In this document: positions 5,962-54,650 of the stretch, piece by piece
Numbering within the stretch: the first letter of the stretch is position 1
How the letters are laid out: every line of letters begins with the position of its first letter
Source: Stentor roeselii
Lineage: Eukaryota > Ciliophora > Heterotrichea > Heterotrichida > Stentoridae
Direction of reading: 5' to 3'
Length of the DNA stretch: 64,000 nt
NCBI GenBank assembly: GCA_006503475.1
Contig: RSEH01000156.1
Coordinates: 1 to 64,000 of the forward strand
The notes under the pieces: generated by a model
What the model was told of the DNA's origin: nothing
What the model saw: the letters and a program-made list of their open reading frames with translations, nothing else
Database searches by the model: none
Translations under genes and position numbers: made by a program

Positions 5962-6051
5962 GTAATAATTTAACATATCAAGCTTATATTCAGAATTAAC
6001 AAATAGAAATAGAATAACTATTATCTAATTCTAGCATTTGCTTTAACCTCC

Positions 6052-12395: not shown

Positions 12396-13587
12396 ATTTA
12401 CAGAGATGAATTTAAAATTTGATTCATTTAATGTTTCTTAAAATATTGGCATGTTCAAATTTTATTTAACAATTGATTATTATTGTTATTCGGTTTGTTT
12501 AGTTGATTAAAATTAAATAAGATGATGCAAGTTTAATCATTTTCGGTTTAAATCTCGGTTTATTCATTTACATAAAATTAACATAAACTGTTAATTGGAT
12601 TCAAAAATTTCACACTTTCATCATCGAGTTATTTTTAATCGAATTTTTAACTCTTCAAATATTCTAGATATAAAATGTGCAGATTTTCTTAAAGTCAATT
12701 TATAAGTTTAATTGTATTGTTGTAATATTTCTCTCAATAGGAAAATTCAAGATTTTGCTTGATAGCAGATTAAATCCTCATGAAATTTTTTTCTAAGCAT
12801 TTAGATCAGTAAAAGTTTGGCTTAGAGTCATATAAGCAGGCCTTGGGTTCTTTTATAAGATATTCTAATAGTTTTTCATTTAATCCAGCCTTGTGAATCA
12901 TCGATTATGCACCAGGCAAAAAATCTGAGTTTTACAATGCTTTGATGTAAGTAATAACATCATTAGGAAGCCTATTTGTTATTCATTTCACATGTTTTTA
13001 TCAAATTACCATATATTAATCAAAATATCACATAGTAGCGATCACAACCTTTTAACTAGTTTTCCAAAACAATCATATTTTCTATCAGAAACTTCCTATT
13101 TCTAAGGTTCATATCATCATAAGCCCTTTAAACATCTCACAAGGGGTTAAATCACTTTTCAAATTTATAAATAAAACACTTATGCTTATTATTTCAATTA
13201 ATATCGATACGAAAGTGAAACATGCAATGATTTACTAATGATATATAAAAAAATACTAAATTGATAGATAATGATTCGATAATTAAATATCTAAGTTTAT
13301 TTAAAAAACTGTAAAAACGATATGAACTTGAACAAAAATCAAATTTCTAATAAATATCTAAAATTCATCTATAGATAAAATAGCTTAAATCAAAGCATGT
13401 GCATAGTTTCAAAACATCTTTTTTTAAATCTCATTAAATATTTCTAATCTTTCTACAACAAGCCCTTCTCTTAATCAAAATGAAATTCACTTAATCATCC
13501 ATTTCAATCACTACCTATCTAAAAAGACTCAAAGCATAAAATCAAATCTTGAAAATTATCTTTAAATCAAAGCAAACCTTAATAAAG
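12396..13587. promoter_or_regulatory. Divergent intergenic region between MFS 2 and MFS 3
   Basis: About 1.2 kb, strongly AT-rich, between two divergently transcribed transporter genes and so containing both promoters. No coding frame or recognisable regulatory element was found. Confidence 0.4.
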
Positions 13588-28169: not shown

Positions 28170-31100
28170 CTAAGTGAAGATAATAATAACTAAAGAAATC
28201 AAGAAATTCCTTCCACAGTTCAAATACTTGAATTTGAATTTGTAACTCGAGTCAGTCTGTCCACCAACCCAAACAGTAAGAGCTAAAACCTGTTCATCAT
28301 CAATTAACTCAGGATTTCCAGGTAAGTCATTTTCAGCAGTCAAATAAACAGTAAACTCTTTCATAACAGTCAATCCCGTGAAATTAAGTTCATTCTTAAC
28401 CCCTTGAATCATTTCGACAGATCCAAACCTTCCCTTCCTAACTTTTCGATTCAAGCCATCAAGTCCATCCCGTATCTGAGCCGAGTTCGGTTTACTAGTA
28501 TCACTTGGAAGTACAACCCCGAAGACTTTTCCATCAGTTTTAATACCAACACTAACAACCAAATTTCCACGATCATCAGTTGAAACAAGGTAATCATCTA
28601 AAAATCCAGTAGAAGCCGTATCATATTCCGTAGCAAATTCAGAAACAGGAGTCCCATCATAAAACGGGACATATTTTTTTAACTTCTCAGGACTTCTATC
28701 AAGATTTTTCGCATAAGTGATGGGCTTTTCACCGTCAACTACTCTATTCACAAACAAGGTAAGTTCATAGTAAAGAGACTCTTCAGTCAATCTTCGAGTT
28801 ATTCCAAGTGACGGGTCGATACCTGAATGAATCAAGAACTCGACAGGCAAAGCTAAAGCTTTCGCAGTTCCCGTTAAAACCTGTTCAATAGTCGAGACCT
28901 CCTTGACATAAATTCTAAATTTCGCAGGAAGGTAAGTTGGAAGAGTTTCAAATTCGAATAAAGTGACTCCTTCAGTGGTCCTTCCTGCTCTATCAACAGC
29001 AGCAATAAACAAGACATATCTCGTCGCATCAGTGAGTCCTTGAAAACTGACAGAAGCGTATCCAAGACTGATGTCAGTCCAGGTGGATCCGACATGATTT
29101 TCACAGTCATTCCACATGATATCTCCAGTGATCAACATCTGAACAACAGGCACAAGCGAGCCTTTTCTCGTCAACTGGTAAAAAACTTGAACTAGTTCAG
29201 AAGCCTTGATCTGCACCTTGCAAGACACCCGGGTTAACTCAACAAGTCGCACTGAGTAAATCGCTGGAGGGTCGTTGTCGATTGGCAGAGTTTGAAAAGG
29301 AATTAAAGATCTTTCAAGGTAGTAAATTCCGCTCGCATCTCCAGAGACTGACAACTCGATCCACCCGCTGACTGCTCCGTAAATCAAGTTCACAGTGAAG
29401 AAAGAAGCAGAGTTGTTATAAGTCAAGTTTAAGAAACTCGGATTTATTTTCACGTAATCTGATTGGAAAGGTTTGGAAGTTGTTAAAGAAATATCAATTG
29501 TTTCATAGGTCTTCACAGGGACCCAGACCTTCACAGGCAAACTGCTTCCTGATAAGGGGATGTAAGAAATGTCTTCACAGATTATTGGAATGTTGCCTGC
29601 AGGAGGCAAGACATTGATGTACATGTTGACTAGAGGTTTATATTGACGACTTTCAGTATCGTTGTTTACTTCAGTTTTTATCCAACTCAAGAGGTACCTT
29701 CCTGGCTCCACTGAATTAGGGACGAAGACTCTGAAGCTTTTTTCCTTGTCCCATGCGTATTTCCACAAAAGCTCTTCAGGGTCAACCCCGATCGAATTTA
29801 ACTGAGGAACTGGCCGGATCTTCAACAGGTCAAAAGAAGGCTTTTCAAGAGTAAGAACAACTGCATAGGAATAAGCTCCTTGATAAACGTTAATTTCTGA
29901 CGTGTTTATAAATATTCGGTAGCCTTTGTTTGTGAAGTCCAGGTTTGGGTAGGGTGTTAAATTCGGATACGACTGGACTGAAATGATTTCAGCGTCTTTG
30001 TCAATGAATAATATGAAAAAGTTTCCGGAATTTCCATGTTCTTGTAAAGTTGGAACTTTTTTAAATAATAAAAAAAGTTCTTGCCCGACTGATGTGATTT
30101 CTTGACTGGTACTTGTGGAAGATAAACGAAAACCTGAATCTTCTTTGAAGTTACATTCAGGGTTTAGAAGACGAGGGTCAGTTGAATTGATGAATTCGCA
30201 AGAGTAGCTTCCGCTGATTAATAAATGAAAGTTTCCTGGCCATTTTATCAGAACTTCACCGTTTTGCTTTATTGATGCGTCTTCTAAGGTGAATTTGAAT
30301 AAAAAATCAGAAAATGTGTGGGTTGTTAACGATTTCGAACTCACTGAGGACATGTTTAGAACTCCTGGAAGGTCTAAGACTTGGAAATCGATTGACTGGT
30401 CGGAAGCTAGAACTTTTCCTGATTGTTGGTCGATCAGCTGTATGTTTAATTTGTTTGTTGTTCCTTTTACTGGGTTGACTATTGCGTAGATGTTGAAAGT
30501 CATTGTTTGTGACTCGGAAAATTGCCCGAGAGAATCGAAAACTACAGTTCTTGGGTATTTACGGAAACAGGTTTCTGATGATGGAGTCGATTCACAATAG
30601 ACTTCTGTGTCTGCGAAGACTAATTGATAAGCGTATTCTACTGGAAACTGGATGTGCATTGAGATTTGATTTGTGGTGTTTATATCTATTGGATTTTCTA
30701 GAACGAAGGTGTATTGAGAGAATATCGCCTCGTTTTTAGGCATGAACCTTGATGATAGGACGTTTAAGAGTGATGGAGCAGGGGATATCACAAGCATACT
30801 TGATGGATCATTCTCGTCTAATTCGTCAAGAGTTACTCCTCCAAATGAAGTGCTTATTGAAAATGATGAAGTGTTTCCAGTGGTTTCAGGGTTTTTAATG
30901 TATCCGAGAGTGATGTTGAAAGTAACGTAGCGCTTGATAGGTGTAAAAGTATTCACAACTAAAGTTTTTCCTTTCACAGTGCAAGAATTAAACGCCTTTA
31001 AAGCTCCACTTGTAAAGCATCTCTCAGTGGTAGGTAAGTCATTGTATTCCTCAGGAAAATCAATTTTTATATCTCCTCCAGATGGGAGACTTTGCATGGT

Positions 31101-34100
31101 ACTAAGTTGAAAAGTATAACTTGTTAATACTCCAGCTTCATAAAACTCAGGCAAAATCTTAACTTGCAGTCGCAAAACAGGATTTGAATCTACAATCCGA
31201 TATCTTGGAAATTCAGCGTAAGCAATAGTCTTTTCTGCAGAATCCAAAGCAGTAATAGTCATTCCATCAGAAGACTGAGGAACAACAAGCGCATTATCTG
31301 GATTCAATAGTCCAAAAATCTTGAAACAAATAAGTGAGTTTTCAGGTATCAAGTTATAATCTTTGATATAAATGTCATCATTTTGAACTTCACAGACCCC
31401 GAAATTCACCTGACAAGTTACCTGAGGAGTGATAGTAGATAGATCTGGGTAGTCATCAGGTAACTTCACCTTGATACTAGACCCACTTTCTAAAGAAATA
31501 ACCAGAGAAAAATTCAATCTAACTTCAACATCAGATCCTTTAGCAAACACATTACTAGTGAAAACAGGGTACGTTGAGAACTTCAAAGGTGTAAACGATA
31601 TAATATCAAAAATATTCCCAGTTGTGAATTTATCTTGAATCTGTTTATCATCATTGATTGAGTAATACTTGATATATCCAGTACTATCCACATAGCTAGG
31701 ATTAGTAAAATTGATAAGTTTAACATCAACATCTTCTCCCGAATAAATCGTTCCAGGCAGAGTCAAAGCAACCATTTTAGCTTCAGGATAAGTAACAACA
31801 TCAATTCCATCAATAATATAAGTTTCAGTATTTTTATCATTCAATGGATTTTTCTTCACACTTGCCTTAACCCCATTCTCAGGAATATCAAGATACTGCT
31901 GAGGGAACTGAATGACAATCATAGACCCTTCCAGTAAATCACTCGAAGCTTTAAAATAAAGAACAAGGTTCGTTCGAGTCCTGATGTTTTTATTAGTAAC
32001 ATAACATTCACTTCCAATACTTGTGCACACCCCTTGTTCCGTGGGGTTCAAAGATGTCAAGACCGGGTCAAGACTAAAGCTTTTTCTACTGATGAGCCAA
32101 GTGACTTGCCCTTCAAAGCTTTCTTTATAAACTCCAACCTTAATCTGCGGAGTATCCCCAACAGTCACTGGAGTTCGAATGACTGGAAAATGAATCGAAA
32201 TAAAAGTCTCCTCAGAAATCGCTTCAAAATTACTAACTCTGACCAAAGCCGGGTCATGTTGCAATGCAGGGGAAGTAGACACAATTCCATAAGTGAGTTT
32301 ACAAAGAAGTGACTCTCCAGATCTAGGACTCAACCCTTTAATGCCATTACAAAAGACTTTCATATCATTGGCATCAATGTTCAAGTCCTTTTCAAAGCTC
32401 ATATACGACTCGAACTCCAAGAGAATCGTGCTCTGGTCCCCCGGGGTGGTCCCGTCCATGTAAAAGTAACCGTTCGGAATGAAAGTCTCCGTCGTGAACT
32501 CAACTTTTAATATCGCGTCGCTGTCCGCGTCGAGGGTGCTCAGGTCGACGGTCATGTCGTCGGCGGGGGACCCGACGACACAGATGTCTGGAACAGCCGA
32601 CTCCATCACATCTGAACCTTCCATCGCGTAGAACTGGATCGAGTAACACCCTGAGCTTCTTGATGATTTGAAACCTTCTGAACCGTCTATAGGACTCGGA
32701 TATGTTGAAAGGACTAAATAAGTGCAAACTCCTTTTTTGATTCCGTAAAACTCGCGAAGAACGTCGCCTGTGAACTTTATGCTTATCACTTTGTTTGAAT
32801 AAAGACATTGAGGAACCTCGAAATGGGTTCTTGATTCAGACCATCGGTCTGGGTAGTTGTTGAATGGAAGGTCTTTGTGGTATATCGTGCAACGAGGAGA
32901 TGCTGATGGAGCGATGTCGAAGTCGTCTGGAAGGATCACTTTGTACCAGCCTTTGGTTGATGATAGACCTTTGCGACTACGGAATCTGAACCAGATTTCG
33001 CCGTATGAGTTTTGCTCGAGCTCTCTTTCGTTTATACTTATTGTCGGCCATTCCACCCAGTAGTCGTTAGGATAGATGATATCATCTATATCAAGCTGAT
33101 TGCCAGTCCAACTCTCAACAACCTGACTAGTATCCTCCAAATCACTATAATAAAATATTTGAAAATCCGAAGTAGTAAGTGCCTCAGCAGGGTTCATGGC
33201 TCCCAAGACAACCTTAATAGTCCCAGTTGAAGACTGAGGTTCAAAGTTACTAATAACGATATGATTATCACATTCTTCCACATTACAATCAGAAACACAA
33301 GACACCGGATAAATATTTTCCGTACTCTGACTAAGTCCTTCCACAGAACACTCCGAGTCAAGCCAAAGAAACTCTTCAGGAAACCACAAATCAATTCTTT
33401 TAACACGACTAGATCCTTTAGAAGGCGTGATTTCAACAGTCCAAATATCATAAGTTCTTCGATGAAGAGTCGAAAGTCGGTGAGTGATAGTCACAGTAGG
33501 AGATACTCTATTAACTTTAGGAATTTTCACGAAGTAATGCTCTTCCGCCCATATTCCTTCATCAATGACATAAGCTGTGAAGTTATAATCAACATCTTCA
33601 TAGTTCGGAGATTTGAATAAATTATTTCCAGCATCTAAAAACTTCATTAAAAACGAAGAGTCAGAATTTGAATCATCTCGCCAAACAACCCAGAGACTTT
33701 CCGCATAAATATCACAGTTCGTTGTTTCGCTGTTGCATTCGATATTCGCACTGCCAGTAGTGGGTAAAGTGAAAGCTTCATCAAATTCATAAATGACGAA
33801 ACTAGAGTCAGTGTCAATGTCCACTTGCAAGTCAATAGTCGCTTCAAGTGGATCTGTATAAACAGTGAAAACTGTTGTTATCGGGTTTGAAATAGTCTCG
33901 TCATTGAATATCGCAGGAGAAGGCTCAACCATTTTGCTATTCCCAGAGTAATCAAAAATATTCAGCAATGTATCAAGATTAAACCTCGCATAATCCGTTC
34001 CAAAAGTATTCGAAGTGCTACAAAAGCTCCAGACAGTGAAATGAACTCTAAGCTGTTCATTTAAAATCTCTGAAAATGATTGAACAGGATTTTTTACTTT

Positions 34101-43100: not shown

Positions 43101-46100
43101 AAAATATTCCAAAACTCCCCCAGCGACAGACATAGTTCTCGTTTCTTCAGTTCCATCACTCAACTTAACAACAAAAGAATTACTCAACTCACTACTCGGC
43201 TGTAAAAATCCATCAAATCCTCCATCAGCAAAATGAGTAGAAATCAAAACCTCATGCCAATTACCAGCAGTGATCGAATAAAGACTAGAAGCATAAACCT
43301 TAAACTGTTTATCAGCAATGCTTTCTTCGCAAGGTACTCGATTCGAGTCAACAGTGCAATAAAGTTCAGCTCCTGAGGACTTACCATCGAAAGCAGTGTC
43401 CATTTCAACAGTAAAATAATCAGAATTAATGTTTGATATGTCAAAAGTCGGCTTCAACTTAAATGAAATCGAAGCTCGCGTTGATTTAACAGCAGTTGAC
43501 CTGCTTTCTGATTGTGCAGGAGCTGCGATGTACATCGGGTAAGGGTAAGTTGCCGAGTTTGCTGTAACAGTCTCTGATTTAGTCTCTATTCCCACTGTGC
43601 TAAGTGAATCCCAGAAAGAATCCACTTGAATTGATGATGAAGTGTCAGTCAAAGCCTTCATTAAACATGAAATAGTCAGGGTAGTGCCAGAAGCAATACT
43701 TTCATAGAAATCAACTGTCGCTACTGAAGAGTCTATCAAGCACTTGTAGTTCGTCAGTGATGAAAGACCTGAAACTTCACAGTCTGGACTTGGAAACGAA
43801 AAATCATCTGGAAAAGTCACTACAAGGGTACCGTCCTTTGGAATCTCTTCACTTGTTACAACTGTGACTGTCCCACGACTGATCATATTCAAAAATCCTG
43901 GAAAACTTGTAGAAATTGATGAAAATGTTGCTAGGGTCAGGTCATCTAGTCCTGTGTATGAGTTTCCGTCCCTTTGAGCTACGAAGTTGCTCCATTGATA
44001 ACATTTGATCACTGGGGTAGACCATTGGTGCTGAATTGTATTTGTTGTTAAAGTTATGGTCGGGTAACGCCCAGCAGCCCCTGTAGAGGGCGAATCGACT
44101 CGAAGAATTTTTAAGGTTTCGAAAATGGTGCAGCCGGTGAGAGAAAGACCTTGCAAGTCGATCTGGTCATCGAATTCTAAGATAAAAACAGTTCCTGATA
44201 CAATTGCTGCGGAATTGTCCATTAAGGGAATTGTGATGTCAACTGCGCCTCCAACTGAACCTGATGTAGTGGGCTTGTCATGTGGACTTGAAGGGGTTCC
44301 CGGGTCGCTTGATATTTTATCAGTTACTGTCATCACGTAGTTTAAATGGAAAAAATCCAGTTCACCGTAAGAATCATCAAGACTTAAAGCCATCATTTCA
44401 ATATGAATCGCATCACTTAGTTCATTTTTCGGGTTTTTTACCTTCCAGAGGACAAAACTAATTGAAGTCCCTGCTGAAATCGTTTTAAAACCTGTCATTT
44501 CAACAATAGCTGGCTTTCCAATTCCAGAGTTTCCATGATACAACTTGCAATTCAAAGGTTGGGTGTTGCTCATGCTGTTTAAATTTGAAGTTCCTGGAGT
44601 TGGTTGACAAGGAATCATTTCTCCATGTTCAAATCCAGTTCCCAAGTCATTTTCAAATAAATCATGGCCCCAGGAGTCTTTAGTCGGGAAATAAATCCTC
44701 AAATACCCTGAATCAGGAATATCAGTAGTGACCTTTAAACCAAATTCGAATAAATTAGTAGCTTCTGCTGTTTTATGCGAAGGAACAACAGAAAAGCTCG
44801 AAAAGAATGAATCTGGAAAGACTTGAATATAGTCTACTGCGATGGTATCAACTGTTCCATCATCTTGCTCATCTGCAGAAATTTCAATTTTGTAAAGACC
44901 TGGATTTGCAGGGTGTTCAAATCCGACTTCATCAATATTATCAGCATTTGTTGATGTCAAGGTAAGGACCACTGGGTAGTTCACAACAGGATTATCTTCT
45001 GGAGCGTAGACAGTCACAGTACTTGAAGAAACTGAGCATCTCGATCGTTTTGCACCGAAAAGACAAACACCCTGAGCGCCATTAGGAATAGTTCCAAACC
45101 CATTCAAAGTAACATCAATTTTTCCTTGATCCTCCAAGATAGACCCGAATCCATCAAGTTCAATCCTAACAGGTGCATATTTCCCTACAGTAGCAAAAAC
45201 AGGTTTTTTATATTGTCTGGGCACCTCATAAAAACTCGGAGTCACAGCGCTCACGATATCAAAAACATTAGAATCTGTATTCGTTTCTATTTGGTCCGAA
45301 GCACTTCCAGAAGTCGTTGAAAAAGTACTGACCTTCACCCCAGAAGAAGTCCCGGCACTTGAAGGGTTTTCAGCCAAGATCCTAACGACGACGTTTTTTC
45401 CTGTTGCAAGTTTGTCAAACCCTGAAAGCGTCGCAGTGAGTCCAGAGACAGAACAAGTATAAGTCCCGGTCATGAAAGAAGCGCTGCCGTCATGCACATT
45501 GTAACAGGTGGACTCGGGCAAGTTGAAGCCTGAGGGAAATTCAATAACAACACTGCCTTCTGCAGGAACTGCCTTGGTAGGCATGAACTGGACGAGGTAC
45601 TCCATCACGTCTGATGTGAAAAGCTGTGATTTTGAAGGCCAGGAAACAGTGATTGGAAGACTTTTAGCAGATGCGTAGCTGATCACTGAAGATAAAGAGT
45701 TTTTCGACCAATGATAAATCACGAAGTCCAGGTATTGAGAGTCGGGCAAGGGGTTGATGATGTTTTCAATGGTGACGGATGAGAGACTTCCACTCACGTC
45801 GAAGATGACCAGATTGGCTAAAGCGAAATATTTGCAAGTTGTTGAACACGTCGGACTCGAGCTTGCGAGAGAAGCCGCGCTGTGAATCGAGAGAGCTAAA
45901 AAGTCCCCACTGGCAGTGGTGATTTGACTTAAATCAAAAGTAAAGTCCGATCCAGAGACCGTCGGTGGATTCTGATCAAAATCAGCAGGTGAGTTAGTTT
46001 TTACTCTGTAAATTTTCTCCACTTGTCGATAATGCAAATGAGTCCCTGGCCACCCATCAGTCATATCAAGAGCGTACATAGTTAACGATATCTGAACTTC

Positions 46101-49100
46101 ATCTCCTCCAGTGCTAGGGTTGAATATTTTAGGAAATTCAATTCGATAGCTGTTTCCACTGGAGATATCATTAAACCCTGATATAATCACCTTCACAGGC
46201 AGGCCAAGTGAAGCACTTCCCACAAACAAATAACAAGAAATCCCAGCAGTTAACGACCCTGCTCCAAGACAAGGGATCTGCTCGTTGTTAGTCAGTCCGA
46301 GTCCCAAGTCTTCCAAGAAGAGTCCAGAGCTGCTGGTGGGAAACTCAACAACAAGGCGACTTCCAGCAGCCACCGTATTAGTCACTCGAAAGTCAATAGA
46401 AATCCTGGTAAAAGTCCCTTGAGTCCATTGATCCGCCGTGATGCTCAGGTAAGGAAAACGAGTCCCAACAAGTTCAACATATCTTTTCTCAGCGTATTTG
46501 ACACCGCCACCAGTCGGGTGGACTTCAATCAGGAACCCGTATCGAACAAGGCCACTTTCCAGTTTCAAGCCTTCAACGCCTTGATCAGCGAAGACAGTAG
46601 TGATATGAAGTAGATATTTAGTGTTATAAGCAATGTCGTAACTTGTAGGGGCCTGCACTTTGATAGTCGTTGGAAGTGAAGTTGAGGAAGTCACTGTGAA
46701 GAGGCAGTTATCTGCCAAGTATTCATCTGAAGAAACTTTCCACACACATCTGATCTGCCCGTTTGTTGGAAGTGAGATGGTTTCGTAAGTGGACAACACG
46801 ACGTAACCGGTTTTCTTTGTTATCGTCTCGGCAAGTTGGATCTCAAACTCAAGAGGACCGATGCCGCCGTTGGGCAAGGGGAAGGCGTTGTGATAAATGA
46901 TCTCTCCCGTCACTTGGTTCGTTATTATTGGAGGCTCCAAAGACGGCGAATTCGGGTCTGTGAACCAGGCAGTCCCTGCTGGGTCAGCCCTGTCAATCAC
47001 TTCAAAACTGCCTTTAAAAGTATCAGTCGAGTTGTAACTCGCTATTACAAACCTCTTTGCAGTGTAAGGATTTGACATAGTCCCTTGAGGAGGGTTTTTC
47101 ACTGACACTGTCAAATCAACAAGGCTTCCTGCAGCGATGTTTCCTGAAAATCCACTGATGTGAAGTTCTGTGTCTCTTACAACGTTGCAACTGGCGCCAT
47201 TTGCAGAAGTGACAACAGAAGCCCCGATGAAACTGCAAGAGCTGTCATCGATTGAACCTGCAGCGAATTCAATAGGAAAATAAATAATGTACTCCCCAGT
47301 GCTTGGCACTTCTGAAGTGCAGGTAAACTGAAAGCTGTAAATTTCATCAGTGTCGAAGTACCCGTACTCAGTAGTCCCTGCGAAACTCACTGAACAAGAA
47401 GTAGAAGTTCGTGCATAGGACGTGGGAAACTTGTTAGTTCTTGATAAGGAAGACCTACGAGACATGACGACCCAAGTTTTAGAAGTTATTGGATAGTCAG
47501 GCCAGTCTTCCATAGTGATAGGGAAGAATTCCACACGGTTCGGGGTTGATTTTTTATCCAGGTCTTTTAAATTGTACTTTTTTACAGTCAGGTCTCGACA
47601 GTTCATGAACTTGAACATCCTTGTTTCTGGCCACGTGTAAATTATTGGGCTTGGATTGCAGATATCTAGGTTGTCACGTACTCCATTTGTAGAACCGTTT
47701 ATCACTTTTAATGAAATTTTAGTGTTTTTCCAGTCAGGCAGTCGAAAACCGACTGGGACTTGCACCCAGATCCAAGTTCCTGTCGCGACTGTTGCAGTGT
47801 TTTCAATGTTAAATGAAACAGTTAAGTTGTCCATGCCTGGGATGAAATGAACTGGATTCACTACTCTGGAATAATCGTCTTCAATGTGAGTTGTTGTCTG
47901 TCCACTTCCTCCGCCGATGTTAAAAGCGGTCTCGACGTAAGTGTTGAGTTTTGTGTCGAGAGTCACCCATGATGGGTTGGAATAGTTGCTGAGGTCTTCG
48001 TAGACTGTTCTGATTCTTATGGGAAAGTCGTAAAGGTTCTTGGATGGGTTGATTATCCCTCCGAAGTATAAGTTAAATATACTACCTGGATTTGGACTTT
48101 TTATGTTTTTTACGATTATTGTTGTGTAGTCGTAGTAACCGTATTTTAAGAAACATTCGACTCGGGATTCGTTGTAGACTGGGTCTTGGGTTAAGGTTGG
48201 AATTGTTTGAATTGTTAGGTTTTGCAAACAGTCGATTTTACCACCGTCTGGAATACCCGTTCCGAGGTCAGATGACCAGCCTGCCCCCGTTCCAGAGTAA
48301 TCGAAGGGGAATTCAAGTAAGAGGTACCCTGGATAAGTTGTATTATCAGAGCTGGTAATATTATGTTGAATCTTAAAGTTAAACATCATAATATTTGCAT
48401 CACCAATTCTCTTATGCTCCGAAGTTGTATACAAATAAGTAAACCGATCTTCCATGACATACAAAAACGGTTCAGCCTGTTCAATATTAACTCCATTGTT
48501 CTTATCTAAATTGACAATAAACCGATAATACCCAGTCTCTTCAGGGTACAAAAACCCATTTTTAAGAGGATCAGTGACTCCAATAGTATTCAGTTCAATC
48601 TCATAATAATCATAAGGAGCTGCAAGACTCGGGTCGATTCTAAGTTCTTCAGGAGTATAAAATGTGACCATATCAGGAGTGCATGGAGTTCCCGAAGCCC
48701 CTTCAATGAAAGTGCACATCCTTCCAAAATACCCTTCTTCCATAAAATCATTCAAAGTTTTCATGCGACATTGAATTAGCCCATCAACATTTTTGGTAAA
48801 ATACCGAACACCTGAAATGCAAGGAAAAGTAATATTGACCCTTGTATTATACAAAGTATTAGTTTCAGGAAAGATCTCGTTCGGCTTCACTATAATCTTG
48901 ATAGGTCCCCATTCTTGTAAACTGTTCCAAGACTCAGACCCATAAGCTTCAATATAATTTGTATACAAAGAATCCATCGACACATAAAACGGGTACAAAT
49001 TATCATCAATCACAATATCTTCAATTTTCTGATCAATTCTTTTATCAATCCCATCATCTTCATCTTGAGAAAAAATCTCCACCTTTGCAGTTCCACTCTT

Positions 49101-52010
49101 AAAGCCAGTGGTCGCATAGAACCAGACTTCATAAACATTCGTCGGGTCTTTCTGGTAAGTCTCAGGCAGATTCACAGTACTAGAATGATCAGTGACTCCA
49201 AGAACTAACATTCGATGAAAATTCGAGTTAAAGTTATTTTCGCCCTTGCATCTAATCCCGGAATTCACAATTTTATAACAGCCAGTATTAACACTTGCGA
49301 AGTAATAAGAAGGAAGCAGTACCTGAATAGTTCCCCCGTCAGTGATTCGATGATCTTGTTGAAACCTGAGTCTCCAAAGATTCGTGGTGTTCTTATCAAA
49401 AGCTGAATGTTTCTGCATTGCTCCATCGAAGTAGATGGTCGGGTTATAGTCGACTGCTGCATGATTAATTTCTATGTAGTCTCGTACTTTAGAGTCTATT
49501 ACAACGTAAGCTTGGATCATTGGTGACTGGATCCATAAACTTTGCTTGTCGGCAGTGAAGCAGGTTTTAAAGGGACTTGTTACTGATGAACTTGAAGGGT
49601 TTTTGTAAAGAATCCCAGCCGCTTGCGGCTGGGTGAAGACTTGGTAATCACTCACTGATCCTTCGAGCGATGATGAACTGCATTTGTTGATTGGAGTTCC
49701 TTGAGCGTTTGGATGGTCCCATTTGTAACCGTGGGGAAAGACGATGTATACCCAGCCTTCTCCTGATAATGAAGCGCTCATTGGAAGAGAAAAATCCATT
49801 TCTGTACTTGGATTGTCTATCTCGTATGAACTTGCTGTTACATCTCCTGATAAGGCAGATGGAAGATCGATTAGTGAAGGAAGTTCGAATGTTTGCTCGT
49901 TTAGGATTACTCCTTTTTCGTCTTTTGTTCTCATTGTGAATTTAGGAACGAAACCGGAATATTCAGCATTTTTTACATTTGAGAGTTGGATCCACCTTGA
50001 GACACCACTTGATACCACACCATTGAAACCTTTCATTCTTACAAAAACTGGGTCTTTAGTTGTCCCAGCAGTAATCTCACAATATATACTACTAGGAGAG
50101 TTATCTGGAAAAGAGCTATCATAAGTACAAGCAAATTCTTGAGTTTCATAAGACTGCAGACCCCATCCAAGATCTCTTGGAAAGCTATTATTGGAAGTTT
50201 GGAATTCCCATTCGATAAGGCCGTCTGCAGGTATATCTACTGAGTTTTCAAGTTGAAACTTGAGCACATTCCAAGCATCTCTAGTATAATGTAAATACCA
50301 AAAGTCAATAGTTGAGAAACTATCCGGGTTAGTTCCAAAGATATATTCAGCTTCCTCCAACTGATTCCCATCAGAGTCATAAATCCTAGCAATAAACTTA
50401 TACTGTCCATAATCCTCCACAGGTATCATAAACCCTGAAGGCACTCCAGCAGTAGTAACCTTAATCGAAAGTGGACAACAGTCAACTCCAGTCATCGGAC
50501 TTTTAATCTGAATCTGAGGAGGACTAAGACTCGAGTCAAATTTACATAAGCTAGCAATAATCTCTTCCTTTCCAAATGTGCAAGAAACCTGTCCAGTTCC
50601 TGCAACAATAACACTAGGACAGTCAATTTTAATCTCCAAGTAATCCTCAGGAGGAACCTTACAAGAAAGGTAATTCCTCGGATGTATAAAAAAATCAATA
50701 GGCCCATAAGATCCGATGGGATTATCAACCCGATGCTTCAACATTTCAACAGAAAATCCTTCAGGGTACCCGACAGTGCTGATAGTGACATGGCCAGCAT
50801 TCGGGTTATCATCGATGATCAGCGAGTCAGGGTCATAAGTCTTGATAGCGAAAGCTCCAGTATCTCCAGATGTTGAAGGGTTATAAGCCTTGACCTTTAC
50901 TTTAATATACTGACCTGAAACCTTTTTGAAGTTCGCGAAGCTCACCATGTCAGTCGTCACTTCACAAGTCACGGAATCTCTGCCGGCGACAGGTTTGAGT
51001 CCTTGGAGACTAGTGCAAGAATCACGGATAAGGCCGTTGTAACCTTCTGGGAACACGACACTGACCTTCCCACCTTCAGGTACTTCGTTATAAGGCAGGA
51101 AGGTGAAGAAGTAAGTACTTGGAGTGTCTGTCATCAGGGGACTTCCAGTGATCTGCACTTTACTCACTGTCCCTGCTGCCACTGAAGGGCCGGAAACAGA
51201 AGAAGTCCTTGCAAGGACAGTGAAAGTGTTTTCTCTTAATACCTCCAGAGTGATGTCTTCAGTTTGGCCTGACTTCGGCGGATTCACTATTCCGTACACG
51301 TCAAACGTCAACGTCGACTCAGTCAGTCCTCTGGTGAAAGGAGAAAACAGCAAAACTTTATCATTCTTCGAAATCTCCAGCCCGAGCCAGTCATCCCATT
51401 CTTCAACGTAACAAGTCGGCGCTGAAAACGAAAAATCTGATGGAAATATCATCCTCAGCCAGGAAAACTTCGGGATATATCTGGAAGGAGTCAATTTGAA
51501 CTTGTATATCGGCGAGTACCTCGCCATCAATGCACCTTCGACTGTCAAAGACACTTCCAGAGAAACTGGCTCTTCTGCGATTCCAATGTTTGGGTATAAA
51601 GAATTCTCATCTATCACTGTTCCTGACTTTAAAGTTCTCACTTGAAAGACTCCTGTACTTCCTGATTCTGATGGATTTTTTATGTTTTCTATTTCGAACT
51701 TGTGTGCTCCGGCTTTTATTGTCCCTATGGTTAAGGTCAACTTTCGAGAGTTGACCGAACATGATATAGGGAATGGATCTCGGTCTGTTATACGGAAAGA
51801 TGAACATGAACTCAAACCTAGGTCATTTTCGTACTGTTTCGGGAAGTCGATCGTCACTGAGGCTTCTGAGTCGATGTCAGAAGGGATCCAGAAATTGAAA
51901 TAGTAACGAGAACGGAAACCTTGGTTGTTCCATTCGAGTTCTATTGGCTTTGTTTTGTCTGGGCTTATCAGCCCACCCTTGCAAATAGTTAGGAATACCA
52001 AAAGAAACAT
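28170..52010 (-). CDS. Giant secreted/surface super-repeat protein, 7,946 residues
   Basis: Single uninterrupted frame of 23.8 kb, over a third of the window, starting MFLLVFLTICKGG (signal peptide) and ending in a short hydrophobic tail (CGRNFLISLVIIIFT) compatible with GPI or tail anchoring. The protein is almost wholly beta-rich, Ser/Thr/Gly/Pro-rich modules with paired cysteines. Recurrent motifs are an FP edge such as VTFPDDFSFPSPDC, a closing (I/V)KNPS with small residues, an AP/DG module, and a DLGTG-type module that recurs about twelve times with a 1.65-1.96 kb period. Near the C-terminus (about residue 7,580) a fibronectin-III-like domain reads DNDPPAIYSV through TRYVLFIAAVDRAG. I recognise no named family; similar huge FP/NPS-repeat proteins are common but unannotated in ciliates. 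A role in cell coat, adhesion or pellicle is inference. Confidence 0.85.
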   Translation of the reverse strand: MFLLVFLTICKGGLISPDKTKPIELEWNNQGFRSRYYFNFWIPSDIDSEASVTIDFPKQYENDLGLSSCSSFRITDRDPFPISCSVNSRKLTLTIGTIKAGAHKFEIENIKNPSESGSTGVFQVRTLKSGTVIDENSLYPNIGIAEEPVSLEVSLTVEGALMARYSPIYKFKLTPSRYIPKFSWLRMIFPSDFSFSAPTCYVEEWDDWLGLEISKNDKVLLFSPFTRGLTESTLTFDVYGIVNPPKSGQTEDITLEVLRENTFTVLARTSSVSGPSVAAGTVSKVQITGSPLMTDTPSTYFFTFLPYNEVPEGGKVSVVFPEGYNGLIRDSCTSLQGLKPVAGRDSVTCEVTTDMVSFANFKKVSGQYIKVKVKAYNPSTSGDTGAFAIKTYDPDSLIIDDNPNAGHVTISTVGYPEGFSVEMLKHRVDNPIGSYGPIDFFIHPRNYLSCKVPPEDYLEIKIDCPSVIVAGTGQVSCTFGKEEIIASLCKFDSSLSPPQIQIKSPMTGVDCCPLSIKVTTAGVPSGFMIPVEDYGQYKFIARIYDSDGNQLEEAEYIFGTNPDSFSTIDFWYLHYTRDAWNVLKFQLENSVDIPADGLIEWEFQTSNNSFPRDLGWGLQSYETQEFACTYDSSFPDNSPSSIYCEITAGTTKDPVFVRMKGFNGVVSSGVSRWIQLSNVKNAEYSGFVPKFTMRTKDEKGVILNEQTFELPSLIDLPSALSGDVTASSYEIDNPSTEMDFSLPMSASLSGEGWVYIVFPHGYKWDHPNAQGTPINKCSSSSLEGSVSDYQVFTQPQAAGILYKNPSSSSVTSPFKTCFTADKQSLWIQSPMIQAYVVIDSKVRDYIEINHAAVDYNPTIYFDGAMQKHSAFDKNTTNLWRLRFQQDHRITDGGTIQVLLPSYYFASVNTGCYKIVNSGIRCKGENNFNSNFHRMLVLGVTDHSSTVNLPETYQKDPTNVYEVWFYATTGFKSGTAKVEIFSQDEDDGIDKRIDQKIEDIVIDDNLYPFYVSMDSLYTNYIEAYGSESWNSLQEWGPIKIIVKPNEIFPETNTLYNTRVNITFPCISGVRYFTKNVDGLIQCRMKTLNDFMEEGYFGRMCTFIEGASGTPCTPDMVTFYTPEELRIDPSLAAPYDYYEIELNTIGVTDPLKNGFLYPEETGYYRFIVNLDKNNGVNIEQAEPFLYVMEDRFTYLYTTSEHKRIGDANIMMFNFKIQHNITSSDNTTYPGYLLLEFPFDYSGTGAGWSSDLGTGIPDGGKIDCLQNLTIQTIPTLTQDPVYNESRVECFLKYGYYDYTTIIVKNIKSPNPGSIFNLYFGGIINPSKNLYDFPIRIRTVYEDLSNYSNPSWVTLDTKLNTYVETAFNIGGGSGQTTTHIEDDYSRVVNPVHFIPGMDNLTVSFNIENTATVATGTWIWVQVPVGFRLPDWKNTKISLKVINGSTNGVRDNLDICNPSPIIYTWPETRMFKFMNCRDLTVKKYNLKDLDKKSTPNRVEFFPITMEDWPDYPITSKTWVVMSRRSSLSRTNKFPTSYARTSTSCSVSFAGTTEYGYFDTDEIYSFQFTCTSEVPSTGEYIIYFPIEFAAGSIDDSSCSFIGASVVTSANGASCNVVRDTELHISGFSGNIAAGSLVDLTVSVKNPPQGTMSNPYTAKRFVIASYNSTDTFKGSFEVIDRADPAGTAWFTDPNSPSLEPPIITNQVTGEIIYHNAFPLPNGGIGPLEFEIQLAETITKKTGYVVLSTYETISLPTNGQIRCVWKVSSDEYLADNCLFTVTSSTSLPTTIKVQAPTSYDIAYNTKYLLHITTVFADQGVEGLKLESGLVRYGFLIEVHPTGGGVKYAEKRYVELVGTRFPYLSITADQWTQGTFTRISIDFRVTNTVAAGSRLVVEFPTSSSGLFLEDLGLGLTNNEQIPCLGAGSLTAGISCYLFVGSASLGLPVKVIISGFNDISSGNSYRIEFPKIFNPSTGGDEVQISLTMYALDMTDGWPGTHLHYRQVEKIYRVKTNSPADFDQNPPTVSGSDFTFDLSQITTASGDFLALSIHSAASLASSSPTCSTTCKYFALANLVIFDVSGSLSSVTIENIINPLPDSQYLDFVIYHWSKNSLSSVISYASAKSLPITVSWPSKSQLFTSDVMEYLVQFMPTKAVPAEGSVVIEFPSGFNLPESTCYNVHDGSASFMTGTYTCSVSGLTATLSGFDKLATGKNVVVRILAENPSSAGTSSGVKVSTFSTTSGSASDQIETNTDSNVFDIVSAVTPSFYEVPRQYKKPVFATVGKYAPVRIELDGFGSILEDQGKIDVTLNGFGTIPNGAQGVCLFGAKRSRCSVSSSTVTVYAPEDNPVVNYPVVLTLTSTNADNIDEVGFEHPANPGLYKIEISADEQDDGTVDTIAVDYIQVFPDSFFSSFSVVPSHKTAEATNLFEFGLKVTTDIPDSGYLRIYFPTKDSWGHDLFENDLGTGFEHGEMIPCQPTPGTSNLNSMSNTQPLNCKLYHGNSGIGKPAIVEMTGFKTISAGTSISFVLWKVKNPKNELSDAIHIEMMALSLDDSYGELDFFHLNYVMTVTDKISSDPGTPSSPHDKPTTSGSVGGAVDITIPLMDNSAAIVSGTVFILEFDDQIDLQGLSLTGCTIFETLKILRVDSPSTGAAGRYPTITLTTNTIQHQWSTPVIKCYQWSNFVAQRDGNSYTGLDDLTLATFSSISTSFPGFLNMISRGTVTVVTSEEIPKDGTLVVTFPDDFSFPSPDCEVSGLSSLTNYKCLIDSSVATVDFYESIASGTTLTISCLMKALTDTSSSIQVDSFWDSLSTVGIETKSETVTANSATYPYPMYIAAPAQSESRSTAVKSTRASISFKLKPTFDISNINSDYFTVEMDTAFDGKSSGAELYCTVDSNRVPCEESIADKQFKVYASSLYSITAGNWHEVLISTHFADGGFDGFLQPSSELSNSFVVKLSDGTEETRTMSVAGGVLEYFNVDYLHTTAGQMNVFYFKIRSSSALDGSTDTIVLEFPLKDYNGNELFDYDLGSGKASGELFYLDNHQFSGSVKCILFHGDKTNNFPARVEISGFGSISASTDIPFDIARIKNPSTAGYDVQVSIRAYIYSSGLVEEERTVDYIFAPFEYSTSTSCTGNEPILSSYETEATSTLEFKCCASSDLQAGDMLILEIPDDYSFPSSPSVSNSFTSVFKKFESANWIIIKSSAAVACQSGNPSSTLTGFTNPAYEILENVLEFKAYIITKKPSVSSTTLYKPTMIDIYSFTKVATKITKAAAISISPSIAVTNLNSEEKVYSLLEVTISFTGSFPSNGYFTLELDTSTDPYYFQSGSGIDGKFKFKLNGNTFTVYDFSSISSPFVLQVPVKNPDLGSAISLNFEAFNSLDQSVGAVSITTSAMTSSSYNQLNEQSHIIRWLSVSSLSINFYFKLDSDITNTVYLTLNFGSIFDSTSFTGSFPVADSSSIYNGAACASPCSSSSWTGSNKLQYSFSSLSSGVHNIEFSGYSNIAISSSGLHLVEMWLSSSTTPSSSDYYYTFFMIVPSSSGTLDSANHYGTGTSEKSIIELEVTSSMTLTYFFLEFFQDFTSNQGFLSDLGTGLSDGDFISGITEYSGSETEDCVLRTSSSGMVSGVRCLSASFSDLSGHLIYLAGIKNPSGSTTGLYNIYMVTYSSSATKYHSFITNSVSISSNSPSSSSDNPSLSTIIVQENSVWTLTSLIDYTYAIPGDKVLIDFTNNLDSYDLASASLGSGITSMKVFKKNPSIWLVLQSIPNSAIKFSMNNPKHSSSSYSMSCSTFSGTNLVKIVTSSSLVISTGTATSYSESTPHVPTVPFTVAVDLSFTLPHYVPAGGSIVFSFTKSNFDSISCTACISSLTDVDYQNRVSYAITSNSNYWMVTVTNFEEISAGSVYLNQIRVECKTSGSYSIDLATYSGSNKIDIASLSLSVSSEVTLPGMVLLPRLSFLTTWKYPETSSVVDFELMINPYTTLDPADSSYLVIRFADNSVWKEKDSTASLKCLINENLSHDCSRTTTDIKIVNSIILTSGTLYKIRVFANNAKDDGLAAPTTSGWHQVTILTYKTTPIEDQGTVSVPISSPFSKLTSEIFAQGSSSSSLLHIKLTPSQTISSSGYLVVEFPLYDLETSQELFEAEIGSSQVDGTYFPCEVFESGTSLMSGVTCLVEQGFYTSTATVNSRLVVHLTGSLSSGNSYILGLPGIQVPSTAKGADLVIFSYSGSNLLDYQYLRSVHYVHTVTSTSTVPAEYPTISDSKLMSTGNTFTFKLQPSLPIQTSDVLIFEAKVGHVSITSTTSSSTGNNFLFIYPKAGWIVFQPSSIIDTASSTSIIFTNIDNPSYISSTSSDYIFKAYHVNALTSIRDRGVIAYEYTFSNSAPTPPFDLGTLSLTSWTCLTCTSTNIESSSEVMFKISFNFDLNLPSGSVFEVTFPDDSEEFQSVSKNCEAISAGFSAAASCGRDSGLMVRIENFGSYTAGENVDVYVKALSPPKQISTSAGSVNVYYDADGDKNIGSDTTSIVYTVNGPTSSPDGSAKVYFSMTSATISTRASQTSSFTVSFEPSSTISKSSGTFEISSSLTPSTTSYICKFIDRSKDFVEYISSSCTYSSPKFTISAPLTVNITSGQVWDLEIFTYSLSTNNGLTFPSSGQDLITVKAGSDTFEYYYEVIPAAASTAKVFSKCHTVDFLNFFEVWIETSVDTYSNGGRIEVLFEAESFENDLGTGTTDGQKVDCLSDFDTSSSIYCTLQVGSDAGFNYRPRGASVRVHSQDSDSGKKKVQIANVKNPSEADLNVKVRVRVFGLSGTTETTVIDEMIFYTLGTAESDAVELNEDSFLNGETDLLVGATNSFTVSTDISSSILSSSDYLFWRFPYILASSSITIQEDSTGDSQSTSFSLEKSSILESLIISSPPSPDSYTGSITWSISDFENPPYKPLNSPVLTIDVIINNFHKFSIKFSKNLLNHEPGQVTISQLYVSGNSIIQVEGYLNGYSDIDIIFEISGVMGTNLAISIDFPTTFALDTFCQVLEISLSPITGDWVDCRSSESSFILSNINGYSSNTKVRVRGWAKLPNSVGPHTVSIVFYYQYPSLVSYEGSETFSVINTPALSRFWIDFFIKNSNYQPVYAGETDWIYFDVSVPLDLTKNLGFVTFVFEANSFDMSVYKATCEWTSNSDNWQASDCLAQVDSGTSEFKVQVMAPEYHDITAGTWKVTIRGLSGGVYDGITYPSSSYKIALVNIEYSTDGSSSAVLGSANVKVPKDAFDSADIFTYNVLKDSEIIFEFEFVPENDVSKGIPQSGGKSYMLVYFPTVVNTLNCFDDDIGTGLGDQDLMDSFNVENLELLESRLVLGDQASGTHGVFYIRNYTNDLTAGTSYKFYLPWLKNPSSSDVLIHFFTEIWEENNGIYELKVYQEFRYCYDSKNQGITTKTSDVTYSSEIIHALADLGFKVSLTNTISGSDPSEKIVWKLSESKPEWTSNYCVSYTCEAILPKHLILMTPSSQILDQDTLTLEKVPNPDDPNEVQSWTLYIFKNNIIQDKLSYTKTPFSIPEPSGGASVTWRMPDENVENPLINRHDRYLFRFRPSTSIPLGGSLQITFPGLSTDSSNTYSVDNACNPLHGIFGNGGKCIKTSTTVITCSGFQQWDPYMPEIHIECYAINPSKEGNLDNFKVETFDSSGNSLFSKPITASFKITDAPKELKDFRMGWPERTRAPACENRNFADIFVKIVTQRSIYNTGHAVRIYLPSGVALTKDTDSTTYLECYWRNRFNKTPAEFCTVGTDAGQTVISVGVTDQQGLKPYSEYTVHVYTRDTSGGLYQTGVELPAFPEWESWYILATTGSKGDGAKVINEVCPVPWSDLQLRTYSFTVRKWNIWDLTFQPSRDIPVGGGVVVEMRTTNELDQIFELDLGLDMKPLETVKDIGCIVLSGFNSPSPGTIKCQVHKSTEITKKSPVFIYITGHSSDISSSSSHSIRIVKVKNPVQSFSEILNEQLRVHFTVWSFCSTSNTFGTDYARFNLDTLLNIFDYSGNSKMVEPSPAIFNDETISNPITTVFTVYTDPLEATIDLQVDIDTDSSFVIYEFDEAFTLPTTGSANIECNSETTNCDIYAESLWVVWRDDSNSDSSFLMKFLDAGNNLFKSPNYEDVDYNFTAYVIDEGIWAEEHYFVKIPKVNRVSPTVTITHRLSTLHRRTYDIWTVEITPSKGSSRVKRIDLWFPEEFLWLDSECSVEGLSQSTENIYPVSCVSDCNVEECDNHIVISNFEPQSSTGTIKVVLGAMNPAEALTTSDFQIFYYSDLEDTSQVVESWTGNQLDIDDIIYPNDYWVEWPTISINERELEQNSYGEIWFRFRSRKGLSSTKGWYKVILPDDFDIAPSASPRCTIYHKDLPFNNYPDRWSESRTHFEVPQCLYSNKVISIKFTGDVLREFYGIKKGVCTYLVLSTYPSPIDGSEGFKSSRSSGCYSIQFYAMEGSDVMESAVPDICVVGSPADDMTVDLSTLDADSDAILKVEFTTETFIPNGYFYMDGTTPGDQSTILLEFESYMSFEKDLNIDANDMKVFCNGIKGLSPRSGESLLCKLTYGIVSTSPALQHDPALVRVSNFEAISEETFISIHFPVIRTPVTVGDTPQIKVGVYKESFEGQVTWLISRKSFSLDPVLTSLNPTEQGVCTSIGSECYVTNKNIRTRTNLVLYFKASSDLLEGSMIVIQFPQQYLDIPENGVKASVKKNPLNDKNTETYIIDGIDVVTYPEAKMVALTLPGTIYSGEDVDVKLINFTNPSYVDSTGYIKYYSINDDKQIQDKFTTGNIFDIISFTPLKFSTYPVFTSNVFAKGSDVEVRLNFSLVISLESGSSIKVKLPDDYPDLSTITPQVTCQVNFGVCEVQNDDIYIKDYNLIPENSLICFKIFGLLNPDNALVVPQSSDGMTITALDSAEKTIAYAEFPRYRIVDSNPVLRLQVKILPEFYEAGVLTSYTFQLSTMQSLPSGGDIKIDFPEEYNDLPTTERCFTSGALKAFNSCTVKGKTLVVNTFTPIKRYVTFNITLGYIKNPETTGNTSSFSISTSFGGVTLDELDENDPSSMLVISPAPSLLNVLSSRFMPKNEAIFSQYTFVLENPIDINTTNQISMHIQFPVEYAYQLVFADTEVYCESTPSSETCFRKYPRTVVFDSLGQFSESQTMTFNIYAIVNPVKGTTNKLNIQLIDQQSGKVLASDQSIDFQVLDLPGVLNMSSVSSKSLTTHTFSDFLFKFTLEDASIKQNGEVLIKWPGNFHLLISGSYSCEFINSTDPRLLNPECNFKEDSGFRLSSTSTSQEITSVGQELFLLFKKVPTLQEHGNSGNFFILFIDKDAEIISVQSYPNLTPYPNLDFTNKGYRIFINTSEINVYQGAYSYAVVLTLEKPSFDLLKIRPVPQLNSIGVDPEELLWKYAWDKEKSFRVFVPNSVEPGRYLLSWIKTEVNNDTESRQYKPLVNMYINVLPPAGNIPIICEDISYIPLSGSSLPVKVWVPVKTYETIDISLTTSKPFQSDYVKINPSFLNLTYNNSASFFTVNLIYGAVSGWIELSVSGDASGIYYLERSLIPFQTLPIDNDPPAIYSVRLVELTRVSCKVQIKASELVQVFYQLTRKGSLVPVVQMLITGDIMWNDCENHVGSTWTDISLGYASVSFQGLTDATRYVLFIAAVDRAGRTTEGVTLFEFETLPTYLPAKFRIYVKEVSTIEQVLTGTAKALALPVEFLIHSGIDPSLGITRRLTEESLYYELTLFVNRVVDGEKPITYAKNLDRSPEKLKKYVPFYDGTPVSEFATEYDTASTGFLDDYLVSTDDRGNLVVSVGIKTDGKVFGVVLPSDTSKPNSAQIRDGLDGLNRKVRKGRFGSVEMIQGVKNELNFTGLTVMKEFTVYLTAENDLPGNPELIDDEQVLALTVWVGGQTDSSYKFKFKYLNCGRNFLISLVIIIFT
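32361..51830 (-). repeat. Protein-level super-repeat array (12 units) in the giant gene
   Basis: The DLGTG signature lies at about 51,822, 50,171, 48,268, 46,311, 44,647, 42,950, 41,262, 39,595, 37,858, 36,062, 34,303 and 32,385, reading NDLGLSS, RDLGWGL, SDLGTGI, EDLGLGL, NDLGTGF, YDLGSGK, SDLGTGL, AEIGSSQ, NDLGTGT, DDIGTGL, LDLGLDM and KDLNIDA. Steps are roughly 1,650-1,960 nt (550-650 residues). Each signature follows an FP-type strand and precedes a Cys pair and an NPS motif, so the unit comprises several domains. Nucleotide identity between units is low, indicating old duplication under protein-level constraint. Confidence 0.75.
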
Positions 52011-53798: not shown

Positions 53799-54650
53799 TT
53801 ATCCAAACATAATCGAGCTCTGTCCTCCAGGTGGATTACTAACCTTAACCGAGTTTTTTACCTGAAAGTTATTACCCTGTTGCCTAGCATCATTGGCTCC
53901 TCCCTTGAACATAAGTCCACTAAACGCATCAATGGGTCCTTCATTCGAAGCCCCGAACCTCTGAGGCTGTCCAATTTTCTGTGTCGGGAAATTATTTTGT
54001 CCAACAAAAGCCGGAGATTCTCGATGGGCATAGTTGTATTCTTTTCCTCCTTGATGAAAGTGTCTTTCCGGCTCTTTGTAATTAACATCTTGCCCCTTGC
54101 TGAAGTTCTTTTCCATCAAAAACTGACCTTGAGGCGGGTACGTCGGGCTTTTACTTGCAAATTGGTTGAAATCAGGAGGCTTTGAACTTTCGGGCTGCTT
54201 GAAATAATTCACTTCAGCTGGACGGAAGTAGTTGTTTGATGGAAAGTCGATTGGCTTGTAATGGGCTTCTTCTTTGTTTTGGAAGTAGTTTTGGTTTACA
54301 CCGTAGTCTGGAGGTGCGTAGTTCTCGCTTGGGATTAATGGGTCTGCCTTTGCGTTGCTTTTCAAATGAGAGTAACTTGGGTTTGGAGGCATTTTGTTTA
54401 CTTGTTGAGAGTAAATTGGAGGGTGTTGGCCGGCACGTGGGGGCTTTTCGTTTTGCTGGAAATCTTCAGTTTCGTATGGGTTTCTGTTACCTTCTCGGGA
54501 TCTGAATGGGTCTTGGATTGCATGACGCTTTCCAGAATTTTTTGATGGGTTTTGAGGCTCTTCCCATCCTAAGTTGATAGATGAAGCTCCTCCTGGGGCG
54601 TATTTAACTTTAACAGAAGTGAAATTAGTACCGTATTTATACTCGCCCAT
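53799..54650 (-). CDS. Jupiter/HN1-like microtubule-associated protein
   Basis: 283-residue, Pro/Asn/Gln-rich and mostly disordered protein. Both ends carry the same short signature: near residues 14-32 VKVKYAPGGASSINLGWEEP and at the C-terminus SVKVSNPPGGQSSIMFG. Animal Jupiter and HN1/JPT1 proteins have just this layout, PPGG-x-S-x-x-LGF-x-EP at the start and PPGGKSS at the end, and the Jupiter family binds microtubules. The body between is unrelated and made of NYF, PPDF and YKP-like short repeats. The homology call rests on these terminal motifs only, but their paired placement is striking. Probably a microtubule-lattice-binding protein of cortical or ciliary microtubules. Confidence 0.6.
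   Translation of the reverse strand: MGEYKYGTNFTSVKVKYAPGGASSINLGWEEPQNPSKNSGKRHAIQDPFRSREGNRNPYETEDFQQNEKPPRAGQHPPIYSQQVNKMPPNPSYSHLKSNAKADPLIPSENYAPPDYGVNQNYFQNKEEAHYKPIDFPSNNYFRPAEVNYFKQPESSKPPDFNQFASKSPTYPPQGQFLMEKNFSKGQDVNYKEPERHFHQGGKEYNYAHRESPAFVGQNNFPTQKIGQPQRFGASNEGPIDAFSGLMFKGGANDARQQGNNFQVKNSVKVSNPPGGQSSIMFG

Follow-up and report, generated by a model that had tools for sequence, protein, structure and literature searches.

A 64,000-nucleotide stretch of the Stentor roeselii genome (assembly GCA_006503475.1, contig RSEH01000156.1, positions 1 to 64,000; hereafter the window) carries on its reverse strand a gene for a giant protein of 7,946 amino acids (aa). The protein is probably an extracellular, membrane-anchored stalk or fibre of the heterotrich cell surface, built by unit amplification from about 50 disulphide-stabilised beta-sandwich domains and a fibronectin type III (FN3)-like region, with a probable glycosylphosphatidylinositol (GPI) anchor. 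Giant surface proteins made of tandem beta-sandwich domains have been known before. What is new here is the domain itself, the 1-to-11 amplification of a unit as against paralogues of fixed layout, the probable link to the domain family DUF2808, and the depletion of N-glycosylation sites.

Eleven super-repeat units in a single open reading frame

Eleven super-repeat units of ~550-660 residues extend from residue 396 to about residue 6,940, their borders set by eye on the basis of profile hits. Four domain slots, in the order B-D-E-A, make up each unit. When each unit was held out and scored against a profile of the other ten, all eleven gave 35.7-172.4 bits (Table 1), compared with maxima of 7.5 bits for shuffled (20 each) and 1.9 bits for reversed sequences. 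Overlapping 300-residue tiles of the protein compared with one another gave 126 internal matches, some counted more than once through the overlap, and none in three shuffles and one reversal. Successive windows of ~600 residues, whose mutual similarity a first-pass annotation of this DNA had made the test of its repeat model, are thus similar by both measures. Plain BLASTP of the giant against itself found the identity match alone and no internal repeats, because the repeats are too diverged (14-22% pairwise identity among units); this is a limit of sensitivity, and profile methods succeed.

DLG-type motifs are found at residues 613/615, 1248, 1901, 2455, 3020, 3583, 4138, 4718, 5317, 5902 and 6542, at a spacing of 554-653 residues (1.66-1.96 kb). 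The first-pass annotation had described twelve such signatures 1.65-1.96 kb apart, each followed by a Cys pair and an NPS-type motif. The spacing stands and the count becomes eleven units; a Cys pair follows the motif in nine of eleven cases (one Cys follows that at 3020 and none that at 5317), and an NP-type motif follows in eight of eleven. Twelve units are ruled out, as the motif at residue 63 sits in the first N-terminal domain and not in a unit D slot, and the unit profile aligns residues 43-203 to its own positions 368-530, which are the E-A part.

The gene has an ATG start and a TAG stop, and its 7,946 codons without an internal stop bear out the 23.8-kb frame proposed at first pass. 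This, together with stop usage among the 20 open reading frames (ORFs) examined in the window (TAA 9, TAG 7, TGA 4), indicates the standard code. Passages of PMC9505925 describe the standard code and 15-16-base introns in Stentor, and passages of PMC9942806 describe 15-16-base introns, UGA as tryptophan and the telomere unit CCCTAACA in the heterotrich Blepharisma. The sense strand of the giant gene has no copy of the 15-base intron pattern GTA-N9-TAG (2.6 expected from codon shuffling); the 16-base pattern occurs three times on each strand, and its removal would break the frame. The earlier view of the gene as intronless is therefore plausible, short of proof. G+C content per 2 kb is 0.36-0.45 over most of the gene (28001-52000) and 0.27-0.40 in the rest of the window.

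The signal peptide and short hydrophobic tail that had been annotated are both visible by eye in the translation, as the signal-like N-terminus MFLLVFLTICKGGLIS and the C-terminal NFLISLVIIIFT.

Domain composition

Held-out domains scored above all of their shuffles in all eleven units for slots D and A, in nine for B and in seven for E. D outscored the other slots of its own unit in all eleven units, and A in nine. With three domains on either side of the array, the giant has 3 + 11 × 4 + 3 = 50 slots, 33 of them detected directly by an iterated domain profile and the others assigned by register, and then a C-terminal region of ~600 residues. This agrees with the modular chain of the order of 45 domains that had been suggested from the sequence.

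The domain alignment holds 62 of the 72 profile hits, 26 of the giant's 33 and 36 of the 39 in four paralogues described below; the ten domains omitted were weak or partial, so that the Cys and DUF2808 figures reflect the better-preserved domains. Two columns of this alignment each carry Cys in 55 of the 62 domains, and both are filled in 53 (21 of 26 within the giant), as would be expected if the protein were extracellular and each domain had one disulphide. The giant has 122 Cys spread along the chain, and its longest proline run is two residues.

The C-terminal region consists of beta-sandwich domains, an FN3-like domain (residues ~7581-7691), an alpha/beta stretch predicted with low confidence and a second FN3-like domain (residues ~7809-7915). 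In AlphaFold2 it has a mean predicted local distance difference test (pLDDT) score of 61.9, and structure matches of the model give an FN3 fold, consistent with the fibronectin-III-like end noted at first pass. The likeness to FN3 is confined to this region and does not extend to the repeat units. The Pfam fn3 model (PF00041) reaches 19.9 bits on the giant against a cut-off of 25, and Pfam searches with the C-terminal regions gave weak fn3-type hits.

Paralogues with a single unit

A search of the giant's own 44.4-Mb assembly (522 contigs) with its C-terminal 666 residues found four frames of ~2,000 codons, named here after their contigs C281, C78, C154 and C2. Further members were found with the DUF2808 model (C167 and C129) and in a search with C129 (C126, C182 and C460). 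This brings the family in this genome to at least ten members: the giant of 7,946 aa and nine whose open frames span 1,929-2,171 aa. The first four were read whole and submitted to unit analysis, C129 (read whole) and C167 (1,852 of 1,929 aa) are represented by domain hits only, and for each of C126, C182 and C460 the evidence is a match and an open frame. A short hydrophobic start comparable to that of the giant is present in the six other members read (C281, C78, C154, C2, C167 and C129).

The first ~400-870 residues of the giant align with the starts of C281, C78, C154 and C2, and its last ~1,400-1,600 residues with their ends. The unit profile finds one unit per paralogue, full length in C154 and C2 and as the D-E-A part in C281 and C78, where the domain profile places a domain at the B position. 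The domain profile counts ten domains each in C154, C281 and C78, and nine in C2. All four share a layout of three domains, one unit, three domains and the same C-terminal region. The giant looks like this ~2,000-residue layout with its unit amplified elevenfold, long ago. Expansion by unit duplication, as first proposed, is supported by both the held-out units and the single-unit paralogues.

A tree of 60 domains from the five proteins was drawn without slots B and E. Slot labels change 12 times on it, where the minimum is 7 and shuffled labels average 38.6, indicating that domains keep their slot identity across paralogues, though most individual forks have poor support. T1, the first domain after the array, forms one clade from all five proteins (support 95/84). 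Units of the giant are 13-23% identical to those of the four paralogues; with the 14-22% found within the giant, this implies that the amplification is old or the units fast-evolving. The order of duplication is not resolved in the unit tree, as the units are too diverged.

Three tandem copies of CCCTAACA gave 220 forward and 327 reverse matches in the assembly, and none for the reversed control. The forward matches listed lie within the first ~75 bases of contigs, and the reverse ones form one high-position cluster per contig. The five contigs bearing the giant and the first four paralogues are incomplete, since none of their ten ends has such a repeat. The telomere-type repeat and the standard code together point to a heterotrich genome.

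Relationship to DUF2808 and searches of other families

The repeat domain is, from sequence comparison, a probable remote relative of DUF2808 (PF10989), by kinship and not by membership, since no match in the genome passes the Pfam cut-off (best 21.5 bits, gathering cut-off 25.3). A profile of the 62 domains was compared with one of 29 DUF2808 loci from six cyanobacterial genomes, all of which had DUF2808. The match is co-linear over 97 columns, most of the domain (probability 93.3, E 2.7e-7), and stays at 90.6 and 90.9 with inserts kept. The controls were reversed (0.2) and column-shuffled profiles (best of 50, 1.7), and other Ig-like families might score too. Subsets gave 87.6 for the giant's 26 domains, 93.0 for the paralogues' 36, 86.5 for 17 canonical DUF2808 rows and 56.6 for 12 diverged ones. 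Single-sequence scores agreed in direction and were weak (best E 3.9e-5 in a 100-sequence set, with a reversed control reaching 0.015).

The Pfam DUF2808 model matched 4 of 62 isolated domains (best E 3.8e-6), and the N-terminal third of the giant at 15.8 bits, under the cut-off. Across the whole genome it gave five matches (E 0.006-0.59). Each is weak; they carry weight because four of the five fall within a family that covers ~0.2% of the genome, namely C154 and C281, already known, and C167 and C129, found in this way. The fifth, C39, was excluded as an unrelated protein of 1,271 aa (L046, 4226-8041, reverse strand) with Cys-rich EGF/furin-like repeats and a hydrophobic C-terminal part, the DUF2808 match being sub-threshold.

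The family and DUF2808 have in common the first strands and an end of the form pG-x-v-x-v-x-l-x-x-v-x-NP ... f-x-v. DUF2808 stands alone in small proteins (28 of the 29 cyanobacterial matches have frames of 161-231 aa, and one has 413 aa), whereas the family forms eukaryotic tandem arrays of 10 or 50 domains with a Cys pair. One DUF2808 protein is reported among Anabaena exoproteins (PMC10957091). A cyanobacterial genome (G006) reached via locus L056 of Dulcicalothrix desertica has nine DUF2808 matches, and seven of them, all low-scoring (26-43 bits; L075, L077, L079, L082, L084, L085 and L086), are on one contig, C19, inside a stretch of ~75 kb, an apparent local expansion of diverged copies.

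No other family emerged. Pfam gave sub-threshold fn3 and DUF2808 alone on the giant, and on isolated domains DUF2808, He_PIG and seventeen other single-domain hits, with no family over its cut-off. NCBIfam had no hit on the giant and a single sub-threshold one on C154; PHROGs gave eight single-domain hits (best E 0.003). Sequence searches of PDB yielded nothing convincing, and a 142-residue domain of C154 had no match in plasmid and phage records. The multi-domain unit, described at first pass as lacking a family name, indeed has no family model over cut-off, and no publication naming the family was found in the literature searched, most subscription papers lying outside that search.

Predicted structures

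Unit 4, the one unit folded, is all-beta in AlphaFold2 (mean pLDDT 68.4), as the first-pass annotation had anticipated for a unit of ~600 residues. The best structural matches of this model include an extracellular filament protein, integrin legs, pilins and adhesins. Six of the best 13 Foldseek rows are mastigoneme chains of Chlamydomonas MST1 (E from 5.8e-8), which head the list; none is among the 50 VIA matches listed. According to PMC11015965, MST1 is a protein of extracellular filaments on cilia and has nine Ig-like domains in tandem. The giant has no sequence match to it at E up to 10, template modelling (TM) scores by query length are 0.15-0.19, and the cysteine-rich and poly-proline regions by which MST1 makes filaments are absent. 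Membership of the MST1 family is ruled out, as the giant has neither the growth-factor-receptor-like Cys-rich domain nor the poly-proline helix. EbpB, ClfB, spaD and Als3 (bacterial and fungal surface adhesins and pilins) and integrin alpha legs likewise have no sequence match to the giant, and the Z scores of their structural matches are those typical of common arrangements. Among viral predicted structures, the Ig-like, phage-tail and glycoprotein rows had TM-scores of at most 0.25 and were not accepted as kin.

Depletion of N-glycosylation sites

The giant has 29 N-x-S/T sites (sequons) where composition shuffles predict 84.6, and 87 of the reversed motif, compared with 55 (56.4 expected) in a control of 13 of the 20 neighbouring ORFs of the window. 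The deficit is greatest at residues 1658-6303 (units 3-10; 6 against 52.3), a range picked after the counts were seen, unlike the whole-protein figure. There are 10 sites (13.4 expected) in residues 396-1658 (units 1-2), 7 (10.4) in residues 6303-7346 (unit 11 to T3), 6 (4.4) in the C-terminal 600 residues, and 0 (3) in the first 395 residues, a stretch too short to judge. C167 is also depleted (7 against 24.2); in the other five members the shortfall is small (14-22 against 17.2-27.5).

That exactly this motif is scarce suggests that the protein comes into contact with the N-glycosylation machinery and so takes the secretory route, with which the signal-like start and hydrophobic end agree. 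The depletion is most easily explained by selection in a protein that meets this machinery.

Surface location and origin of the giant

One point counts against an anchored surface fibre. The hydrophobic tail passes a hydropathy threshold in C281, C78, C154 and C2, and falls under it in the giant and C129 (the comparison covers the giant and five paralogues, the tail of C167 lying outside the stretch read). Candidates for both features looked for in a GPI-anchored protein, a cleavable N-terminal signal and a C-terminal hydrophobic tail without a cytoplasmic part, are visible by eye in the giant.

The low tails of the giant and C129 would suit a secreted, unanchored structural or matrix protein of the lorica, mucus, holdfast or cell coat, in which the tail would act as an assembly or retention element, and the Cys pairs and sequon depletion fit such a protein equally well. 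We consider this unlikely, though the best of the alternatives, as four of the five paralogues with ends seen have an over-threshold tail in the same place, typical of anchor signals.

The history could also have run the other way: the giant would then be ancestral, and the ~2,000-residue paralogues would have contracted to one unit. The giant's units do not form one clade in the unit tree (one possible split appears in 20% of bootstrap trees), the D domain of unit 11 groups with that of C2 (support 92/93, not starred), and the trees do not give the direction of change. However, the nine other members are all of 1,929-2,171 aa, and expansion needs one lineage where contraction needs several, which makes contraction distinctly improbable.

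Giant tandem beta-sandwich chains also occur inside cells, and ciliary central-apparatus proteins are the best six Foldseek rows for the C-terminal model and row 6 for unit 4. An intracellular, titin-like elastic or cytoskeletal protein is nevertheless very hard to reconcile with the signal-like start in all seven members read, the conserved Cys pairs and the depletion of N-glycosylation sites. Long repeats are prone to mis-assembly, yet a collapsed or mis-joined repeat is scarcely credible, given an unbroken frame of 7,946 codons and units that are far too different (14-22% identity) to be mis-joined.

On the favoured reading, the starting layout would have been a ~2,000-residue member with three domains, one four-domain unit, three domains and the C-terminal region, in which the unit was duplicated repeatedly in register, long ago. 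The chain would be secreted and anchored near its C-terminus, probably by a lipid (GPI), and the three N-terminal domains common to the paralogues would form the outward end, kept far from the membrane. Its length would be set by the number of units. As an extended beta-sandwich domain spans ~4 nm, the chain could reach roughly 200 nm if every domain were extended. Such a stalk may serve as a spacer for contact, perhaps adhesive, with substrate, prey, a mate or a neighbouring fibre. An amplified part with few glycans would lend itself either to packing closely side by side in a fibre or to extending freely.

A broader proposal is more tentative. The family, as yet unnamed, might be a heterotrich one in which a DUF2808-related domain, acquired by old descent or transfer, was made into surface chains, one member having grown to 50 domains and been cleared of sequons to give a bare, extensible fibre of ~200 nm. 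Under this proposal the purge of sequons, strongest in units 3-10 and weak or absent elsewhere, would mark the middle of the array as selected to be a mechanical element.

Table 1. Features of the giant gene. Positions are those of the window; residues are those of the 7,946-aa translation.
Feature	Residues	Position	Strand	Remarks
Giant open frame	7,946 aa	28170..52010	-	Standard code; no internal stop; no 15-base heterotrich intron pattern
Signal-peptide-like N-terminus	1-17	51960..52010	-	Read by eye from translation
N-terminal domains N1-N3	26-137, 161-271, 287-403	50802..51935	-	Domain profile hits; paralogue N-termini match
Unit 1	396-997	49020..50825	-	Held-out score 98.5 bits
Unit 2	998-1657	47040..49019	-	Held-out score 83.0
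Unit 3	1658-2237	45300..47039	-	Held-out score 172.4
Unit 4	2238-2804	43599..45299	-	Held-out score 161.3; structure predicted
Unit 5	2805-3377	41880..43598	-	Held-out score 148.1
Unit 6	3378-3928	40227..41879	-	Held-out score 35.7, lowest of eleven
Unit 7	3929-4507	38490..40226	-	Held-out score 113.0
Unit 8	4508-5072	36795..38489	-	Held-out score 93.4
Unit 9	5073-5662	35025..36794	-	Held-out score 123.0
Unit 10	5663-6302	33105..35024	-	Held-out score 108.6
Unit 11	6303-6940	31191..33104	-	Held-out score 75.2, shorter end (6303-6817)
Post-array domains T1-T3	6957-7063, 7089-7204, 7224-7346	29973..31142	-	Domain profile hits
C-terminal region		28266..29933	-	Beta-sandwich domains, two FN3-like; conserved in four paralogues; AlphaFold2
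Short hydrophobic C-terminal tail		28173..28217	-	Possible GPI-attachment signal; read by eye

Neighbouring genes and other genome observations

Pfam gives clear matches for genes around the giant, among them those of a tubulin-tyrosine ligase, a citrate synthase, several sugar transporters, a Rab-like GTPase and a phosphodiesterase. Three sugar-transporter genes lie in a row at 8893-14982, two on the reverse strand and one on the forward strand. Upstream of the giant, an ORF at 53799-54650 (reverse strand) encodes 283 aa and has no Pfam match. Its PGG-x-SS-type motifs, APGGASSINLG close to the start and PPGGQSSIMFG at the extreme end, resemble those of SPIRAL1/Jupiter-type microtubule-associated proteins. 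The 5S rRNA has seven matches of identical score on five contigs (G000:C15, C27, C150, C466 and C521).

Implications

Stentor and its kin are models for single-cell regeneration and contact behaviour, and to our knowledge their surface proteins are poorly characterised at the molecular level. The family is now defined, with a domain model, a clear history of unit amplification and a predicted giant, glycan-free stalk, and it opens a eukaryotic route to DUF2808, whose function is unknown.
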